Shown: positions 48,506-56,562 of the stretch, piece by piece
How positions within the stretch are numbered: position 1 is the stretch's first letter
Layout of the letters: every line of letters begins with the position of its first letter
Position numbers and translations under genes: made by a program
The notes under the pieces: model-generated
Told to the model about the DNA's origin: nothing
Database searches by the model: none
What the model saw: only the letters and a program-made list of their open reading frames with translations
NCBI GenBank assembly: GCA_022447665.1
Contig: JAKVAQ010000020.1
Coordinates: forward strand, 7,707-71,706
Length of the DNA: 64,000 nucleotides
Source of the DNA: Crocinitomicaceae bacterium
GTDB lineage: Bacteria; Bacteroidota; Bacteroidia; Flavobacteriales_D; Crocinitomicaceae
Reading direction: 5' to 3'

Positions 48506-49384
48506 ATGGAAATGAAGGAGTATTCAATAAAAGAGATCGAAGAGTTTACGGGTATTAAAGCCCACACTCTGCGTATTTGGGAGCAGCGATATGGGCTGTT
48601 TAACCCGAAACGCTCCTCTACAAATATTCGTTCTTATTCTGACGATGACGTTAAGAAAGCTCTAAATATCAATCTTTTATACAGTAATGGGTGGAAGATA
48701 TCTAAGATAGCAGCCCTCAGCGCAGAAGATTTAATATTAGAGGCAGAGAAGATTGTAGGAGAGAGTGGTAAAAGTGATGATCAACAGCTAGATTTTATAA
48801 TAAGGTACATTGTAGCCTTTGATGAGGGAGGTATTGTAGATTCGCTTGAGGAATTATATCAAGAAAAAGGGTTGGTTCAAACCTATACGGATGTACTGAT
48901 ACCTTTACTAGTGAGGATTGGAAATCTTTGGCAAGTAGGGGCTGTATCTGTAGCTCAAGAACATTTCTTCTCCAATATCTTGCGAGAATTTATTCTGCTC
49001 AAAACCAATGAGCTAAGCATTAATGAAGGTAGTCCTAAAATGGTTTTGTTTCTGCACGAGAATGAAATGCATGAGTTGGGCCTTTTAATGACACAGTACT
49101 TCTTGAAGGAGCAAGGAATTAATTGCTTTTATTTAGGAGCAAAGGTTCCTACTGCAGATTTGAAGAAATGTGTTCAATCAGTTAAACCAGATTATCTTCT
49201 AACATCATTCGTATCTAGAATACATAAAGATCAGATAAGGGCAATCGTAAATGAAATTGCTACCTTCTTTGAACTGAAGAACCTAATTGTATGTGGATAT
49301 CAGGTCGAGCACAACCCAACATCTTTTCCAGAAGGGGTAAAGAAGGTTAAAAGAATCACTGATCTCCCTAGCTTCTTAAAATAG
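48506..49384 (+). CDS. CarH/LitR-like B12-dependent MerR regulator
   Basis: 292 residues: MerR helix-turn-helix (about 6-70, IKAHTLRIWEQRYGLFNPKR), B12-binding four-helix bundle (about 95-170), cobalamin-binding Rossmann domain (about 178-285). The capping motif W-x9-EH is present (Trp142, Glu152, His153) and the lower axial His is in ENEMHELG (His189). In Thermus CarH the residue after the Trp is His132, which ligates cobalt after light exposure; here it is Gln143. The family represses carotenoid genes in the dark with adenosylcobalamin and lets go in light. It is followed by a motif array, an ECF sigma gene and the crt operon. Confidence 0.85.
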   Translation: MEMKEYSIKEIEEFTGIKAHTLRIWEQRYGLFNPKRSSTNIRSYSDDDVKKALNINLLYSNGWKISKIAALSAEDLILEAEKIVGESGKSDDQQLDFIIRYIVAFDEGGIVDSLEELYQEKGLVQTYTDVLIPLLVRIGNLWQVGAVSVAQEHFFSNILREFILLKTNELSINEGSPKMVLFLHENEMHELGLLMTQYFLKEQGINCFYLGAKVPTADLKKCVQSVKPDYLLTSFVSRIHKDQIRAIVNEIATFFELKNLIVCGYQVEHNPTSFPEGVKKVKRITDLPSFLK

Positions 49385-50024
49385 ATATAATTACCTTTTA
49401 AATAGTTGAAGCCAGCACAGAAGTGTTCGTTTTTTTGTTTAAGCAATTTTTGCTCCTTGATCAAAGAACATGATTTTGTTATTATTTTAATAAGGAAGCA
49501 GATGGTTTTGTTTAGGCCTTCAATTTGTTTTTCAATATCTAGCTCATCAAACTACAATTTATTTAGATACTTTGTTTAATTTAAATAAAATACTGTTTTT
49601 CAGTGTTTTAAGTCCTTTTAGCTTGTTTTTGTTTAACCTGCATTGATTCTGTTTAACACTTTGTTTAATTTACTCTAAGCTTTGTTTAACGAATGTAAAG
49701 GTTTGATATTCAATGTTTAATATGGTTTTGTTTAGTTTATCCTAAGCTTTTTGTTTAACGAAATCGGAATTATAAGCTGTTTTGTTGAACAAAAACCGTT
49801 AAAAAGGGCAAAAAAACCTCCATTTTAACCTTTTTAGATGCTCAAATCCATATATTATTCTATTTTTGTTTAATTAAAAATAAAAAAAGTTAAACATAAA
49901 AACACCTGAAATACAGTTAGTTAAGTTTTTGTGTTTAACAAAAAATAAAAAAAACTCCACAAAAATTTGGAAAAGTATGTTTAGCCATGTAATTTTGTTT
50001 AAGCAATTGAGTAAAACGTTAAAC
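49385..50024 (+). promoter_or_regulatory. Gene-free region with TTTGTTTAA motif array
   Basis: 640 bases, very T-rich, with no credible gene. The motif (T)TTGTTTA(A/G)(C/T/G) recurs on the plus strand with its G at 49437, 49510, 49574, 49631, 49651, 49663, 49684, 49715, 49730, 49753, 49868, 49933, 49979 and 49997; a variant (TTTGTTGAAC) has its G at 49784. Inverted copies GTTAAACA lie at 49889-49896 and 50018-50025, the last touching the sigma ATG. Three spacings are close to one or two helical turns (20, 12, 21). The 16 bases TTTTGTTTAAGCAATT are identical at both ends (49433-49448 and 49993-50008). Probable operator array for the CarH-like protein and/or promoter elements of the sigma factor. 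Confidence 0.7.
49966..49997 (+). promoter_or_regulatory. Promoter of ECF sigma gene
   Basis: TTTG (49966-49969), 20-base gap, TAATTTTG (49990-49997): the best match to the Bacteroidetes -33/-7 consensus in the window, 27 bases before the ATG at 50025. The TTTG of the -7 box is also the start of the last TTTGTTTAA motif, so a protein bound there would block polymerase. A second -7 box, TATTTTTG at 49861-49868, coincides with another motif copy. Confidence 0.6.
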
Positions 50025-50519
50025 ATGACAACTTTTGAATTTCAAACACAGATTTTACAACTGTCCGATTTCATTGAAGGATTTGCACTGAAATTTACGC
50101 GCAATGAAGAAAATGCTAAAGACCTTGCGCAGGACACAATTTTAAAAGCATTTAAAAACAAAGATAAGTTTGCACCAAACACAAACCTTAAAGGATGGTT
50201 AATGATTATGATGCGAAATATCTTTATTAACGGAGTGCGCAAAAAGTCAAACAAAATGACAACTTATAATTCAGATGATTATAAGGTGATTAATGGAGAG
50301 ACTGATTTTTATTCGCCACACAATATTCTAGGAACAAAAGAAATTATGGCAATAATCAATGGTTTACCAGATGACTTAAGAGTGCCTTTCTATAGACATT
50401 ACGAAGGTTTTAAGTATCAGGAGATTGCAGACGAATTAGGGCTTCCTCTTGGAACGGTAAAAAGTCGTATATTTCAAGCAAGAAAGCTTTTAGCAGCTAA
50501 ACTAACAGACTTAAACTAA
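50025..50519 (+). CDS. ECF-type RNA polymerase sigma factor
   Basis: 164 residues from the ATG at 50025; upstream in-frame codons lie in the motif array and are not like a sigma N terminus. Region 2: LKFTRNEENAKDLAQDTILKAFKN and NLKGWLMIMMRNIFIN; region 4: GLPDDLRVPFYRHYEG and ELGLPLGTVKSRIFQARKLL. No anti-sigma gene is adjacent, so activity is probably set at transcription. crtI begins 3 bases after its stop; it likely drives or co-regulates the carotenoid genes. Confidence 0.85.
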   Translation: MTTFEFQTQILQLSDFIEGFALKFTRNEENAKDLAQDTILKAFKNKDKFAPNTNLKGWLMIMMRNIFINGVRKKSNKMTTYNSDDYKVINGETDFYSPHNILGTKEIMAIINGLPDDLRVPFYRHYEGFKYQEIADELGLPLGTVKSRIFQARKLLAAKLTDLN

Positions 50520-50522
50520 TTG

Positions 50523-51986
50523 ATGAAAAAGATTTCCATTATAGGGGCAGGTTTATCCGGATTGTACGCCGCATGTTCTTTGGCAAAGAAAGGCCATAAG
50601 GTCACCGTATTTGAAAAGAACAGTATGGAAGGGGGGAGATGCCGATACTTTGAAGCCGATGGCTTTAAGTTCGATATGGGGCCTTCATGGTACTGGATGC
50701 CAGATGTAATTGATGCTTTATTTGAAGAGCTCGGTGAAAACCGTGAGGATTACTTCAAAATTCAGCAATTAGATCCAGGTTACCAGGTGTATTGGAAGGA
50801 TGAATTACCAACACAAATACCAACATCTAGAGAAGGTTTAATTGAGCTTTTTGAATCACTTGAAGAAGGTGGAGGAAAGAAGTTTATAGCTTTCTTGGAT
50901 GAGGCTGAAACCAAGTATAAAATCGCTGTAGCGAAATTCTTGGATAATCCTGGAATAAAATGGGGAGAAATCATCAATTTTGACGTTCTAAGGCATGCGT
51001 TTAAGCTAGATTTATTTAAATCAGTGGCTAAAAACGTGAGCAAGAAATTTAAGTCAGATAGAGCAAGAGCGATTCTTAATTTCCCTGCCTTATTCTTAGG
51101 TGAGATGCCGGATAAAATACCGTCACTATACACCCTAATGAATTACGCAGATCTCGAGCTAGGAACTTGGTATCCAGAAGGCGGAATGCATGCTCTTCCT
51201 TCAGCACTTAGAAAAGTTGCAGAAAAATTTGGTGCAGAGTTTCATTTCGATACACCGGTTGAATCATTTTCCATTAGTTCGAAAAATATAACCACTATTC
51301 ACACATCTAAAGGAGACTTCGAGGTTGATGAAGTTATTGGTGGTGCAGATTACAACTTTATTGAGCAAAAATTAGTTCCAAAAGAACACAGAAAATATGA
51401 TTCAAAGTACTGGGATAAACGAAAGATGGCACCTAGTTGCTTAATCTTTTACTTAGGAGTCGATAAAAAAGTTGAAGGTTTACATCATCATAACCTTTTC
51501 TTTGATGAAGACTTATTTGCTCATGGAAAAGAGATTTATGAAAATCCTAAATGGCCAACTAAACCTTTGTTCTATGTTTGTGCACCAAGCAAGACCGATA
51601 AGGATGTGGCTCCAGAAGGGAAAGAAAACTTGTTTATTCTTATGCCAATCGCTCCAGATATCGAGGATAGCGAAGAAACAAGAGAGAAATATTATAAAAT
51701 CATCATGGAAAGAATGGAGTCACATTTAGACCTAAAAATTCAGGGTGATATCATTTTCAAAAAAAGTTATTGTGTTTCCGACTTTAAGAAAGATTACAAT
51801 TCTTACAAAGGAAATGCATATGGTTTGGCGAATACCTTACTGCAAACGGCAAACCTTAAACCAAAAATTAAATCGAAACTAACCAACCTTACTTACTGTG
51901 GACAGTTAACTGTGCCAGGGCCAGGAATGCCAGCAGTAATGATGTCTGGGAAAGTTGCGGCAAACCTAATTAGCCAGAAATTATGA
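50523..51986 (+). CDS. crtI: Phytoene desaturase
   Basis: 487 residues (ATG at 50523). FAD-binding IIGAGLSGLYAACSLAKKGH, then the CrtI-type GGRCRYFEADGFKFDMGPSWY and the C-terminal signature PGPGMPAVMMSGKVAANL. Converts phytoene to lycopene. First structural gene of the crt operon; overlaps crtB by 4 bases (ATGA). Confidence 0.9.
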   Translation: MKKISIIGAGLSGLYAACSLAKKGHKVTVFEKNSMEGGRCRYFEADGFKFDMGPSWYWMPDVIDALFEELGENREDYFKIQQLDPGYQVYWKDELPTQIPTSREGLIELFESLEEGGGKKFIAFLDEAETKYKIAVAKFLDNPGIKWGEIINFDVLRHAFKLDLFKSVAKNVSKKFKSDRARAILNFPALFLGEMPDKIPSLYTLMNYADLELGTWYPEGGMHALPSALRKVAEKFGAEFHFDTPVESFSISSKNITTIHTSKGDFEVDEVIGGADYNFIEQKLVPKEHRKYDSKYWDKRKMAPSCLIFYLGVDKKVEGLHHHNLFFDEDLFAHGKEIYENPKWPTKPLFYVCAPSKTDKDVAPEGKENLFILMPIAPDIEDSEETREKYYKIIMERMESHLDLKIQGDIIFKKSYCVSDFKKDYNSYKGNAYGLANTLLQTANLKPKIKSKLTNLTYCGQLTVPGPGMPAVMMSGKVAANLISQKL

Positions 51987-52819
51987 GAAAATTATTTGAT
52001 AAATATAGCTACGAAGCATCGAAAAAAGTAACAAAAAGTTACAGCACTTCTTTTTATGCAGGAGTTAGATTCTTAGACAAGAGAATTAGAGATGATGTAC
52101 ACGCTATATATGGTTTTGTAAGATTTGCCGATGAAATCGTTGATACATTTCATGAGCAGAACAAATCAGAGCTTTTAGAAGAGTTCAAAAACGATACTTA
52201 TAAAGCAATTGAGAGAGGTATTTCTATGAATCCAATCTTGAATTCTTTCCAAGCCACCGTGAGAAAATACAATATCGATCATCAGTTAATAGATCAATTT
52301 CTCCACAGTATGGAAATGGATTTAAACCCTTTGGATTATGATGATAGTAAATACAAAGAATACATTCTCGGATCTGCTGAAGTGGTGGGGCTAATGTGTT
52401 TGAAGATATTTGTTTTTGGTGATCAAGCGGAGTATGATAGATTGACGCCATTCGCAATGAAGCTTGGATCGGCATTCCAGAAAATTAACTTTCTACGTGA
52501 CTTAAAAGCTGATTTAGATGAGTTAGGAAGACTTTACTTCCCGAATATTGGACCGGAAGGAATTACTTTAGAGGACAAGCTTGCTATCGAGGAAGAAATC
52601 GAGAAAGAATTCGAAGAAGCTTACAAAGGAATTATCCAATTACCTAAATCAGCGAGATTTGGAGTGTATGTAAGCTATTCATACTATACGCGCTTATTAG
52701 CAAAGATCAAACGTAAAACAATCAATGACTTAATGAGCGAAAGAATACGTGTGGCTGATCAAACGAAGATGTTTATCTTTTTTAAGTCTTACGTAAAAAA
52801 TTCATTTAATTTGCTCTAA
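51983..52819 (+). CDS. crtB: Phytoene synthase
   Basis: 278 residues of the squalene/phytoene synthase family. First Asp-rich motif in YGFVRFADEIVD, second in FLRDLKADLDELGRLYFP. Joins two geranylgeranyl diphosphates to phytoene. The GGPP synthase gene itself is not in the window. idi follows after 5 bases. Confidence 0.95.
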   Translation: MRKLFDKYSYEASKKVTKSYSTSFYAGVRFLDKRIRDDVHAIYGFVRFADEIVDTFHEQNKSELLEEFKNDTYKAIERGISMNPILNSFQATVRKYNIDHQLIDQFLHSMEMDLNPLDYDDSKYKEYILGSAEVVGLMCLKIFVFGDQAEYDRLTPFAMKLGSAFQKINFLRDLKADLDELGRLYFPNIGPEGITLEDKLAIEEEIEKEFEEAYKGIIQLPKSARFGVYVSYSYYTRLLAKIKRKTINDLMSERIRVADQTKMFIFFKSYVKNSFNLL

Positions 52820-52824
52820 AAAGT

Positions 52825-53343
52825 ATGGAAGAAGTAATTCTTGTAGATACCCAAGATCAGGAAATTGGTCTTATGGAGAAAATGGAGGCTCATGAAAAAG
52901 GGCTCTTGCACAGGGCGTTTTCAATTTTTGTTTTCAATGACAAGAATGAGCTCCTCATGCAACAACGTGCAAAATCTAAATATCATTCTGGAGGGCTATG
53001 GACGAATACATGTTGCAGTCATCCCAGAAAGGGAGAAACCTTATTGGATGCAGGATATAGGAGACTACAAGAAGAAATGGGGTTCCAAACAGAATTGAAC
53101 ACACACTTTAGTTTTATATACAAAGCTGAGCTAGATAATAACTTATGGGAGCATGAATTAGATCATGTTCTTATAGGTAAATACAACGATAGCCCTATTC
53201 CCAATCCCGAAGAGGTAGAGCAATGGGAGTATGTAGATATAGACCATTTGAAAGAAGATATAAAAGCCCGTCCAGAGCACTATACAGAGTGGTTTAAGAT
53301 AATTTTTGAAAAAGTTTCAGAAACGTTTTCTGAAATAAACTAG
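52825..53343 (+). CDS. idi: Isopentenyl-diphosphate isomerase, type 1
   Basis: 172 residues of the Nudix-fold IDI-1 family: LLHRAFSIFVFN, the catalytic Cys in LWTNTCCSHPRKGET, and the Nudix-like helix RRLQEEMGF. Supplies the DMAPP starter for isoprenoid chains. Its presence in the operon raises precursor supply along with the carotenoid enzymes. The stop overlaps the next GTG start by one base. Confidence 0.95.
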   Translation: MEEVILVDTQDQEIGLMEKMEAHEKGLLHRAFSIFVFNDKNELLMQQRAKSKYHSGGLWTNTCCSHPRKGETLLDAGYRRLQEEMGFQTELNTHFSFIYKAELDNNLWEHELDHVLIGKYNDSPIPNPEEVEQWEYVDIDHLKEDIKARPEHYTEWFKIIFEKVSETFSEIN

Positions 53344-54818
53344 TGGCCAATTCTTCTTACGATACTATCATTATAGGTGCTGGAGTCAGCGGCCTAGCGT
53401 TAAGCCTTCGTTTGGCTGTTACGGGCAAGCGAGTTCTCGTTCTAGAACGCAATTCTACTTATGGCGGAAAGCTCTCTGAGCTTAAATGGGAAGGTTTTAG
53501 ATGGGATAAAGGCCCGTCGCTTTTTACCATGCCAAATTTAATACAGGACTTAATTAAAATTGGAGCTAAAAATCGTCAGGTTGAATTTGGTTTCTCAAAG
53601 CTGGAGAATTTAACACGCTATTATTTCCCAAATGGTAAAACGGTTGAGATGAAAGCCGACCCTGTTCAGAATTATGAAGCAATAAAGGAGGCTTTTTCTG
53701 AAAGAGATGCTGAACAATATCAAAACTACCTCAAAGAAAGCGAGCGTATATACAATAGAATAGGGGAGTTCTTTTTGGATAGGCCTAAGTTTACTGTAGG
53801 TGATGCCTTTAAAAAAGAGATGTTTGAGCGTTATCCGTTCTTTCTTTCAAAACCAATGCTTACCTCTTTAAACAAACTAAATGAGGGAATGCTTTCCAGC
53901 AATGAACTGCGTAAGGTGGCGAATAGATTTGGAACATATAACGGATCCAACCCTTACAATATGAGCGGGCTTTATGCCCTTATTCCTCACTTGGAACATA
54001 ATATTGGCACTTTCTGGCCAAATAAAGGAATGCGTTCTATTGTAGATACCATTTATGGTTTGGCTGTCGATGCTGGCGTTGAGTTTAGCTTTGATGAAGA
54101 CAATATTAAAGTCAATCCTGGGAAAGAATTTAGCGTTAAAGGAAAAGCACAAGAATTTAAGGCGGATAAAGTAGTATGTGGAATAGATCATATTCACTTC
54201 TATGATAAGATCTTAAAGGATCCTCAATTGGCCTCGAAATACGGGAAACAAGAGCGTTCTAGTGCTGCTGTTGTCTTCTATTGGGCAGTTGATGCAGAAT
54301 TTGATGCCATAGGATTACACAACATATTTTTTACAGAAGATTATAAGAATGAGTTCGATCAGATATTTAATCGAAATGAGTTTCCAAGTGATCCTACAAT
54401 TTATGTGCATAACTCCTCAGCTATAAGTTCTTCGGATGCACCAGCAGGTAAGCAAAATTGGTTTGTGATGATCAATACACCTGCAGGTAAAGTTCCTACT
54501 GAGGAAGAGTTGAAAAATATAAGAAATACAATATTCAAGAATCTTAAGGAAAGACACGGATTTGACGTAGCGGATAAGATTTTATTTGAAGAATACTGGA
54601 CTGCAAAAGGTCTAGAGTCCGATACTGGCGCAATTGGTGGTGCACTTTACGGAGCATCATCAAACGGAAAGCGCGCAGCATTGAAGCGACACCCTAATAA
54701 ATCAACCAAATACGATAACCTCTATTTTTGCGGAGGGACTGCTCATCCAGGAGGTGGTATACCTCTTGCATTAAAATCAGCAGAAATCGTTGCAAACTAC
54801 ATCAATGGCAAGGCGTAA
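53343..54818 (+). CDS. crtD: Carotenoid desaturase, CrtD-like
   Basis: 491 residues of the CrtI/CrtD FAD desaturase family, GTG start overlapping the idi stop. FAD motif IIGAGVSGLALSLRLAVTGK; GGKLSELKWEGFRWDKGPSLF; C-terminal CGGTAHPGGGIPLALKSA. As the second desaturase beside crtI and a cruF gene it most likely performs the 3',4'-desaturation of a 1'-hydroxylated carotene, the CrtD role in saproxanthin/myxol-type pathways. The substrate is inferred from context. Confidence 0.75.
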   Translation: MANSSYDTIIIGAGVSGLALSLRLAVTGKRVLVLERNSTYGGKLSELKWEGFRWDKGPSLFTMPNLIQDLIKIGAKNRQVEFGFSKLENLTRYYFPNGKTVEMKADPVQNYEAIKEAFSERDAEQYQNYLKESERIYNRIGEFFLDRPKFTVGDAFKKEMFERYPFFLSKPMLTSLNKLNEGMLSSNELRKVANRFGTYNGSNPYNMSGLYALIPHLEHNIGTFWPNKGMRSIVDTIYGLAVDAGVEFSFDEDNIKVNPGKEFSVKGKAQEFKADKVVCGIDHIHFYDKILKDPQLASKYGKQERSSAAVVFYWAVDAEFDAIGLHNIFFTEDYKNEFDQIFNRNEFPSDPTIYVHNSSAISSSDAPAGKQNWFVMINTPAGKVPTEEELKNIRNTIFKNLKERHGFDVADKILFEEYWTAKGLESDTGAIGGALYGASSNGKRAALKRHPNKSTKYDNLYFCGGTAHPGGGIPLALKSAEIVANYINGKA

Positions 54819-55425
54819 GTACATTTTTTATATATCCCTAGCAGTAATGCTCATCTTTCATATGGTGGGGCTTTACTTATTTCTAGGTGATCCTCATTCA
54901 TCGGACCTCGCATGGTTAAATATGATTCTATGCGCCGTAATCCTTTTCATAAATTCTGAGAAATATGAAATGGAGGTGTGGATGCTCATTGGTATTTTCC
55001 TCGGAGGGTATGTGATAGAAGCTATTGGTGTTAAAACGGGCTATCTTTTCGGTAACTATGAATACGATACAGCATTGGGAACCAAGCTTTTATCAGTACC
55101 GTTGGCTATTGGGTTAAACTGGTATTGTATTGTAGTAATATCAGTATCTCTTGTGCGCCGAATAAAGGCAGATAGATGGGCTAAGGCGCTAGCTGCAGCT
55201 GCTTTTGGAACAGGTATGGACTATTTGATCGAGCCTGTAGCTATTGAGTACAACTTTTGGCATTGGAATGGTGAAGGAATTCCGGTATATAATTATATCT
55301 GCTGGTTCGTGTTCTTATTTGCCTTCGCATATCTCTACTGTAGATTCACAGAAAAAAGGAACCCTATGGGAATTCCATTGTTTATAATCTGGTTCGTATT
55401 TTTTATTATTCTTAATTTTGCATAA
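54805..55425 (+). CDS. cruF: Carotenoid 1',2'-hydratase, CruF-like
   Basis: 206 residues from the ATG at 54805 (14-base overlap with crtD). Membrane protein with about seven helices and the CruF pattern EAIGVKTGYLFGNYEYDTALGTKL, VPLAIGLNW, and DYLIEPVAIEYNFWHW. CruF adds water at the psi end of gamma-carotene-type carotenoids. With CrtD, CrtYcd and CrtZ it predicts a monocyclic, tertiary-hydroxyl carotenoid. Confidence 0.8.
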   Translation: MARRKYIFYISLAVMLIFHMVGLYLFLGDPHSSDLAWLNMILCAVILFINSEKYEMEVWMLIGIFLGGYVIEAIGVKTGYLFGNYEYDTALGTKLLSVPLAIGLNWYCIVVISVSLVRRIKADRWAKALAAAAFGTGMDYLIEPVAIEYNFWHWNGEGIPVYNYICWFVFLFAFAYLYCRFTEKRNPMGIPLFIIWFVFFIILNFA

Positions 55426-55426
55426 T

Positions 55427-55861
55427 ATGTGGTTCGCAATCGCACTTATAATAGCATTTTGGTTCATGGAATTCATGGCCTGGTTCACGCATAAATACAT
55501 TATGCATGGTTTTTTATGGGCGCTTCATGAAGATCACCATCAACCTACTGGTAAAGTATTCCAGAAAAATGACTTGTTCTTTTTGATCTTCGCTATTCCT
55601 TCATGGCTATGCATAATGTTAGGCATGATGAATGGAAATTACTTTTCTGTTGGTTTTGGTGCTGGAATTGCCGTTTATGGATTCACATACTTTCTAGTGC
55701 ATGACGTACTCATTCATCGCAGATTTAAGTGGTTTGATAAAACGAATAATGCTTATTTTAAAGCCATTCGTAAAGCACATAAGGTGCACCATAAGAATCA
55801 ATATAAAGAGAAAGGTTCTTGCTTCGGGATGTTAGTCGTTCCTAGAAAATACTTCAAGTAA
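55427..55861 (+). CDS. crtZ: Beta-carotene hydroxylase
   Basis: 144 residues of the fatty-acid hydroxylase superfamily, with the four His boxes of CrtZ: HKYIMH, HEDHH, HDVLIHRR, HKVHH, which hold a di-iron centre in the membrane. Adds the 3-hydroxyl to beta-ionone rings. The ATG at 55427 was chosen over a TTG 3 codons earlier that overlaps the cruF stop. One base overlap with the cyclase gene (TAATG). Confidence 0.9.
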   Translation: MWFAIALIIAFWFMEFMAWFTHKYIMHGFLWALHEDHHQPTGKVFQKNDLFFLIFAIPSWLCIMLGMMNGNYFSVGFGAGIAVYGFTYFLVHDVLIHRRFKWFDKTNNAYFKAIRKAHKVHHKNQYKEKGSCFGMLVVPRKYFK

Positions 55862-56562
55862 TGAGCAGTGCACTATACTTGTGGTTAGATGTGCTAACCA
55901 TTCTTTTCCCTTTACTTTTAAGTTTTGATAAAAAGGTAGCCTTTGTTAAGGATTGGAAGTCCGTAGGTGTTGGCTTTTTGCTTGTAGGACTTCCTTTTAT
56001 TATTTGGGATGTTTTCTTTACCAAACACGGTGTATGGGGGTTTAATCCTGACTATTTGGTAGGTATTGATATTTTCAACTTACCTCTAGAGGAGGTTTTG
56101 TTTTTTCTGGTTGTTCCTTTCAGTTGCACTTTTATTTTCGCTTGCTGCAGAGCGTATTTTGCTAAGATTAATTTCTCGAAGTTTAATCTTGTCTTTTATG
56201 TTGCGCTTATTGTTTATTGTATCATATTATTGATTAATGGATGGGGTGGAGCTTATACAATGACCACGGTTGTTTGTGCTATTTTGATTGCACCAATTCT
56301 ATTTATTAACCGTGAAAGGTTACATCATTTGCCAATTGCGTTTTTAATTTCGGTAGTGCCATTTTTTCTTGTCAATGGAGTGCTTACTGGAGCTGTTACA
56401 CCTGAGCCAATTGTGTGGTATAATGACCTCGAAAATTCGGGGATTCGTTTAATTACCATCCCTATGGATGATATAATTTATGCCTGGGTAATACTGTCTT
56501 CTTTTATGTTGATATTCAGTAGAATGAAAAAGACTACTAAAAGAGAAAGTTTAATTAGGTGA
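55861..56562 (+). CDS. crtY: Lycopene cyclase, CrtYcd type
   Basis: 233 residues with two tandem lycopene-cyclase domains, as in flavobacterial fused CrtYcd; about seven membrane helices. Motifs: PFIIWDVFFTKHGVWGFN and PLEEVLFFLVVPF in the first half, and PMDDIIYAW in the second. Forms beta-ionone rings on lycopene, making gamma- or beta-carotene. Last gene of the crt operon; converges on the S9 peptidase gene with 5 bases between. Confidence 0.85.
   Translation: MSSALYLWLDVLTILFPLLLSFDKKVAFVKDWKSVGVGFLLVGLPFIIWDVFFTKHGVWGFNPDYLVGIDIFNLPLEEVLFFLVVPFSCTFIFACCRAYFAKINFSKFNLVFYVALIVYCIILLINGWGGAYTMTTVVCAILIAPILFINRERLHHLPIAFLISVVPFFLVNGVLTGAVTPEPIVWYNDLENSGIRLITIPMDDIIYAWVILSSFMLIFSRMKKTTKRESLIR

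Follow-up and report, generated by a model that had tools for sequence, protein, structure and literature searches.

An inverted-repeat operator and an array of half-sites before the ECF sigma/carotenoid operon of a Crocinitomicaceae bacterium, a probable target of CarH-type light control

We analysed a stretch of 64,000 nucleotides from a Crocinitomicaceae bacterium (assembly GCA_022447665.1, contig JAKVAQ010000020.1), hereafter the window, in which a gene for a CarH-type regulator (48506-49384) is followed on the same, plus strand by a gene for an extracytoplasmic function (ECF) sigma factor (50025-50519), the first gene of a carotenoid operon that continues from 50523 to 56562. The regulator combines a MerR DNA-binding domain with a B12-binding domain (Pfam MerR_1 and B12-binding_2, with PDB matches), and the sigma factor was recognised by Sigma70_r2 and r4_2; its start at 50025 is consistent with homologues that aligned from residue 1. 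The remaining genes of the operon were assigned with Pfam and NCBIfam to crtI/crtID, crtB, an isopentenyl-diphosphate-isomerase-like gene, crtD-like and cruF-like genes, a small membrane protein and a lycopene cyclase, the names of the isomerase-like gene and the small membrane protein coming from a reading of the sequence alone. Between the end of the CarH-type gene at 49384 and the ATG of the sigma gene at 50025 lies a region of 641 bases (49385-50025) with 25% G+C. Based on the sequence and on comparison, i.e., on the operator, its tie to CarH, its overlap with the promoter and the enrichment of half-sites, we consider it likely that this region is the light-controlled operator-promoter of the ECF sigma/carotenoid operon, repressed by the upstream CarH-type protein at 30-bp inverted repeats.

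The DNA before the sigma gene was compared in 29 relatives that had been found via this gene, and the same gap was seen to hold a fixed 30-bp inverted repeat, TGTTTAAY-N14-RTTAAACA, so that the conservation in related genomes that an earlier note on this DNA had named as a check was found, with the element kept at the same place. TGTTTA and TAAACA arms were paired 33 times at an outer length of 30 bp and at most four times at any other length. The consensus of 60 units was TGTTTAAY-N-WW-N8-WW-N-RTTAAACA, of which only the inner W positions count as independent because the arms had been used in selecting the units. A 31-bp version was present at sigma loci outside the family, several of which were assigned to Chitinophagaceae and Hymenobacter. 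The sigma gene is usually preceded by two units with a start-to-start distance of 34-35 bp, as at 20 loci, or of 63-65 bp, as at 22 loci, and in most loci of the nearest group the downstream unit ends at the ATG or within a few bases of it. Upstream of carH in loci L117 and L080, variant palindromes were observed (TGTCTA...TAGACA and TGTATAA...CTATACA) that retained the 30-bp outer length; both arms were apparently altered jointly, which makes co-evolution of operator and regulator possible.

In the genome of the window (4.06 Mb), a search for exact units found only two, both in the gap and on the plus strand: O3 (49867-49896), an intact TGTTTAA-N16-TTAAACA repeat, and O2 (49996-50025), likewise intact, whose last position coincides with the A in the start codon (ATG) of the sigma gene. 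A third unit, O1 (49932-49961), lies at the place of the relatives' O1, 64 bp before O2, and has an intact left arm and a decayed right arm (CTCCACA). O3 precedes O1 by 65 bp and O1 precedes O2 by 64 bp, and the three units are 62-70% alike. The two inverted copies reported in the earlier note, GTTAAACA at 49889-49896 and 50018-50025, are indeed present and, judging by the comparison, are the right arms of real operators. The TTG/TAnnTTTG type is the main promoter type of the phylum Bacteroidota. A predicted -7 element (TAATTTTG, 49990-49997) overlaps the left arm of O2, and a predicted -33 element (TTTG, 49966-49969) provides a TTG 20 bp ahead of it, a layout that is shared with near relatives. 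In 11 of 13 near loci, the window counted, TAnnTTTG and the left arm of O2 are fused, and a TTG stands 19-21 bp upstream of the -7 box in most of them. Both of the perfect -7 boxes that had been proposed, at 49861 and 49990, exist; the TTG 20 bp upstream and the layout kept in relatives belong to the one at 49990, the one box examined. As operators were found on both sides of the promoter in the near loci, it appears to be boxed in by two of them.

A survey of 240 genomes of the family, in a cross-table made by hand from two listings, showed the exact unit in 183 of the 199 CarH-positive genomes compared with 13 of the 41 CarH-negative ones. Among the near-complete genomes these figures were 123 of 130 and 3 of 21 (Fisher 6e-15, a test that overstates independence because the genomes are related), and four of the seven CarH-positive exceptions carry a unit with one mismatch. 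The reversed control pattern occurred in about 24 of the 240 genomes. In loci without an adjacent carH, the gene is usually present at another place in the genome, and the unit accompanies the target and not carH. By this comparison, the operator site tracks CarH and not the sigma factor. Two genomes of the same family, G169 and G182 (83% and 90% complete), were observed to carry 8 and 3 exact units, respectively, without a CarH match; either contigs are missing or another regulator uses the same site.

The gap also contains an array of single half-sites. The earlier note had counted about fourteen copies of TTGTTTA(A/G), a number that holds for the core TGTTTA (14 plus-strand copies in 49385-50025, with two more on the minus strand), whereas the exact form occurs only 10 times. 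In 2000 local dinucleotide shuffles of the 641 bases, the plus-strand core had a mean of 1.34 and a maximum of 6, the exact form 0.46 and 4, and TTTGTTTAA, which occurs eight times in the gap out of 117 times in the genome, 0.19 and 3. The enrichment against shuffled sequence that had been put forward as a check was therefore confirmed, and so were the one variant word, TTTGTTGAA at 49781, and the 16-mer that recurs unchanged at the two ends (49433-49448 and 49993-50008). The spacing by helical turns did not hold, the best period failing to outdo random spacing both with all sites (p 0.17) and with the upstream ones (p 0.47); successive left half-sites are 73, 64, 57, 20, 12, 21, 31, 15, 23, 115, 65, 46 and 18 bp apart. 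The 14 plus-strand words comprise the left arms of the two intact units and of the unit whose right arm has decayed, together with 11 orphan left half-sites, all in the same orientation. By word count, the array starts with TGTTTAA at 49436-49442 and continues at 49509-49515 (TGTTTAG), 49573-49579, 49630-49636, 49650-49656, 49662-49668, 49683-49689, 49714-49720, 49729-49735 (TGTTTAG) and 49752-49758, and the eleventh orphan (TGTTTAG, 49978-49984) lies apart from these ten, within the promoter spacer. The one-mismatch analysis added the degenerate half-site at 49781-49789, on the same strand. A right arm sought 23 bp after each orphan had on average 4.0 mismatches in 7 positions, and other offsets were equally good. 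An Rfam search gave two matches at chance level and far under the cut-off, and a scan for sigma-70 style promoters and terminators stayed close to the level of the shuffles.

The orphan array is real and nearly unique, with perfect cores, random flanks, a single orientation and no cloud of decayed copies. Runs of three such half-sites were found in 3 of the 240 genomes, and one of the other two likewise lies before the sigma gene. The nearest relatives have lone half-sites in excess (TTTGTTTA 7 against 0.55 and the inverse 3 against 0.20, counts that include a few belonging to extra full units), which suggests that the window species shows a wider tendency in its most extreme form. The orphans could also be non-functional remnants of repeated local duplication of an operator module, the right arms of which have decayed. 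O3, O1 and O2 do resemble tandem modules of about 65 bp, the right arm of O1 is decayed, and two 24-nt pieces are 88% alike at a distance of 67 bp. However, neutral decay predicts a cloud of one-mismatch copies and flanks that are partly alike, whereas in 49385-49860 one-mismatch copies of TGTTTAA were at chance (4 against 4.8 expected), exact plus-strand copies were 20-fold over (8 against 0.38 expected), the flanks of the upstream copies were no more alike than random pairs and Tandem Repeats Finder detected no array. Because decaying duplicates would be expected to look otherwise, we favour selection for the orphan cores over decay and regard the duplication origin as unlikely, even if it deserves to be kept in mind. 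Candidate roles of the half-sites are local concentration, cooperative extension and titration. It is possible, at somewhat less than even chances, that they raise the local density or occupancy of CarH as weak or cooperative sites; this is the least supported part of the proposal.

The CarH-type regulator is the single match of its kind in its own genome. Its MerR domain (PF13411, 6e-14) and B12 domain (PF02607, 2.5e-12) were accompanied by PDB matches to Thermus CarH (5c8d/3whp at 4e-20, with 5c8a also matched). When read by eye, the protein contains the Wx9EH motif as W-QVGAVSVAQ-EH, and we judged the signature D/ExHx2G-x41-SxT/V-x22-27-GG to be present as EMHELG-x41-SFV, with its final GG reading GY. 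The Wx9EH and ExHxxG motifs are recognition marks of B12-dependent CarH (PMC9304148). Its dependence on B12 and light is inferred from the characterised CarH proteins. Several points, in addition to the relatedness of the genomes, weigh against repression by this protein at inverted repeats. The B12-binding domain PF02310 scored 24.8 bits, under the gathering cut-off of 32.1, and the NCBIfam CarH equivalog NF052513 scored 104.8 bits against a cut-off of 400, which indicates a divergent CarH-type protein and not the named equivalog. Two CarH-negative genomes that are 90-93% complete retain intact units, and the orphan half-sites are without a right arm, without helical phase and without a counterpart of such size elsewhere. 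Moreover, the characterised CarH operators consist of 11-bp direct repeats with TnnACA (PMC8156234, PMC9304148), and for CarA, where inverted repeats had at one time been suggested, a later assessment concluded that these are not what the protein recognises (PMC9304148).

A classical operator of the Thermus type, with tandem direct repeats bound by a tetramer, would agree with the half-site on the opposite strand, TAAACA, which matches the CarH word TnnACA (PMC9304148), and with the shared direction of the upstream copies. The spacings, however, range from 12 to 115 bp and are not 11 bp, the conserved units are inverted in relatives, and the C of TnnACA 11 bp inward from the right arm is kept in only 8 of the 60 units. 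The word fits, but its arrangement is a 30/31-bp inverted repeat and not a tandem 11-bp direct repeat, and we consider an operator of the classical type improbable. From the repression array that the earlier note had assigned to CarH, the unusually many words at the sigma/carotenoid promoter stand as putative CarH-type site material, whereas a direct-repeat operator with helical spacing does not, the conserved unit being inverted and the extra copies unphased. The locus is most likely a CarH-type switch with an inverted-repeat operator that differs from the known 11-bp direct repeats.

It shares with the CarH systems of Thermus thermophilus, Bacillus megaterium and myxobacteria, which are B12-dependent photoreceptor repressors of carotenoid genes, the MerR and B12 architecture, the two motifs, a regulator gene adjoining the carotenoid genes, sites that overlap promoter elements and a TAAACA that fits TnnACA; unlike them, it has a 30/31-bp inverted repeat in two units as well as orphan half-sites. 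In the CarA operator of Myxococcus xanthus, two inverted repeats had also been proposed, one upstream of the promoter and one overlapping it, with cooperative binding by two dimers over about 55 bp (PMC9304148). That reading was replaced by direct repeats, whereas here the inverted spacing is base-exact over many genomes. A similar wiring is known from LitR-LitS of Streptomyces, in which a B12-based MerR-type light regulator controls an ECF sigma factor that drives carotenoid genes, LitR being a light-activated positive regulator of litS (PMC12705666). In contrast to that system from another phylum, the sigma gene here heads the carotenoid operon, and many relatives are without it. In the literature searched, with subscription papers outside its scope, no description of a CarH operator or motif in Bacteroidota/Bacteroidetes was found.

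The earlier note had also considered stacked promoters of the encoded sigma factor. Autoregulation of this kind would be in line with an array upstream of the sigma gene, with five copies that read TTTAAC and could resemble the AAC of an ECF -35 element, and with an operator that is common at sigma loci. It is contradicted by the presence of the site in genomes without that sigma gene: in CarH-positive, sigma-negative loci, a unit lies near CarH in 12 of the 12 examined, several of them between CarH and crtI or before CarH. In two near-complete genomes that have sigma but no CarH, the unit is degraded (G072) or absent (G073). A palindrome with fixed spacing is also unlike an asymmetric -35/-10 pair, and among the copies it is the one at 49990 that has a -33 partner conserved in relatives. 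We therefore find this explanation very improbable. Chance in an AT-rich intergenic region has practically no likelihood, because even at only 25% G+C the shuffles gave at most 6 copies of TGTTTA against the 14 observed and the element is kept at the same place in relatives.

According to the mechanism we propose, the CarH-type repressor from the adjoining upstream gene would bind TGTTTAAY-N14-RTTAAACA at one unit just upstream of the -33 element and at another, about 64 bp away, over the -7 box, the start site and the start codon. With units at these places, B12-loaded CarH would clamp the sigma promoter in the dark and block RNA polymerase. In the light, the B12 adduct would be destroyed, CarH would be released, and the sigma factor and the carotenoid genes would be made; the sigma factor, as the first gene product, may amplify the response. 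In the window species, a third unit, 65 bp upstream, and the 11 single left-handed half-sites would add to this core.

Exact units were also found at other genes. In one genus, of which only one genome has the sigma gene, there are up to 11 exact units per genome, which precede genes for rhodopsin, beta-carotene dioxygenase, 6-pyruvoyl-tetrahydropterin synthase (PTPS), glutathione peroxidase, SOUL and fasciclin proteins. PTPS recurs as a target in three genomes, and in relatives without the sigma gene a unit also lies before crtI. Such a set of putative targets would be expected of a light regulator. At L237:2029-2964 and L248:1253-2964, bacterial rhodopsin genes are immediately preceded by exact 30-bp units, which in L248 have a divergent gene for beta-carotene 15,15'-dioxygenase on their other side, and B12/light control of rhodopsin is possible in this genus. 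Additionally, L178:6655-6815 has three units (two exact, one mismatched) in 160 bp, with carH in the same locus, before the gene of a DUF4397 secreted protein, which is followed by a glutathione peroxidase gene. At L177:1926-3937, carH adjoins a divergent meaB-like gene, which encodes a B12 enzyme chaperone, and precedes an isopentenyl-diphosphate-isomerase-like gene.

More tentatively, and with doubt prevailing, the CarH-type repressors of Bacteroidota might recognise a palindrome of 30/31 bp as their operator and govern a light regulon to which, in some genera, rhodopsin genes belong, and the one-handed array of 11 half-sites at the sigma promoter of this species might be a cooperative or titrating platform, a design not described for CarH. 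The finding would give CarH-type light control a precise operator in a phylum for which none was described in the literature searched, together with a regulon predicted from sequence alone that comprises carotenoids, rhodopsin, retinal synthesis, pterin synthesis and peroxide defence. It also separates two wirings, one in which a single CarH target would make a sigma factor and one with as many as 11 exact CarH operators in a genome, and the half-site array would offer a natural test of how a light switch may be tuned by extra weak sites.
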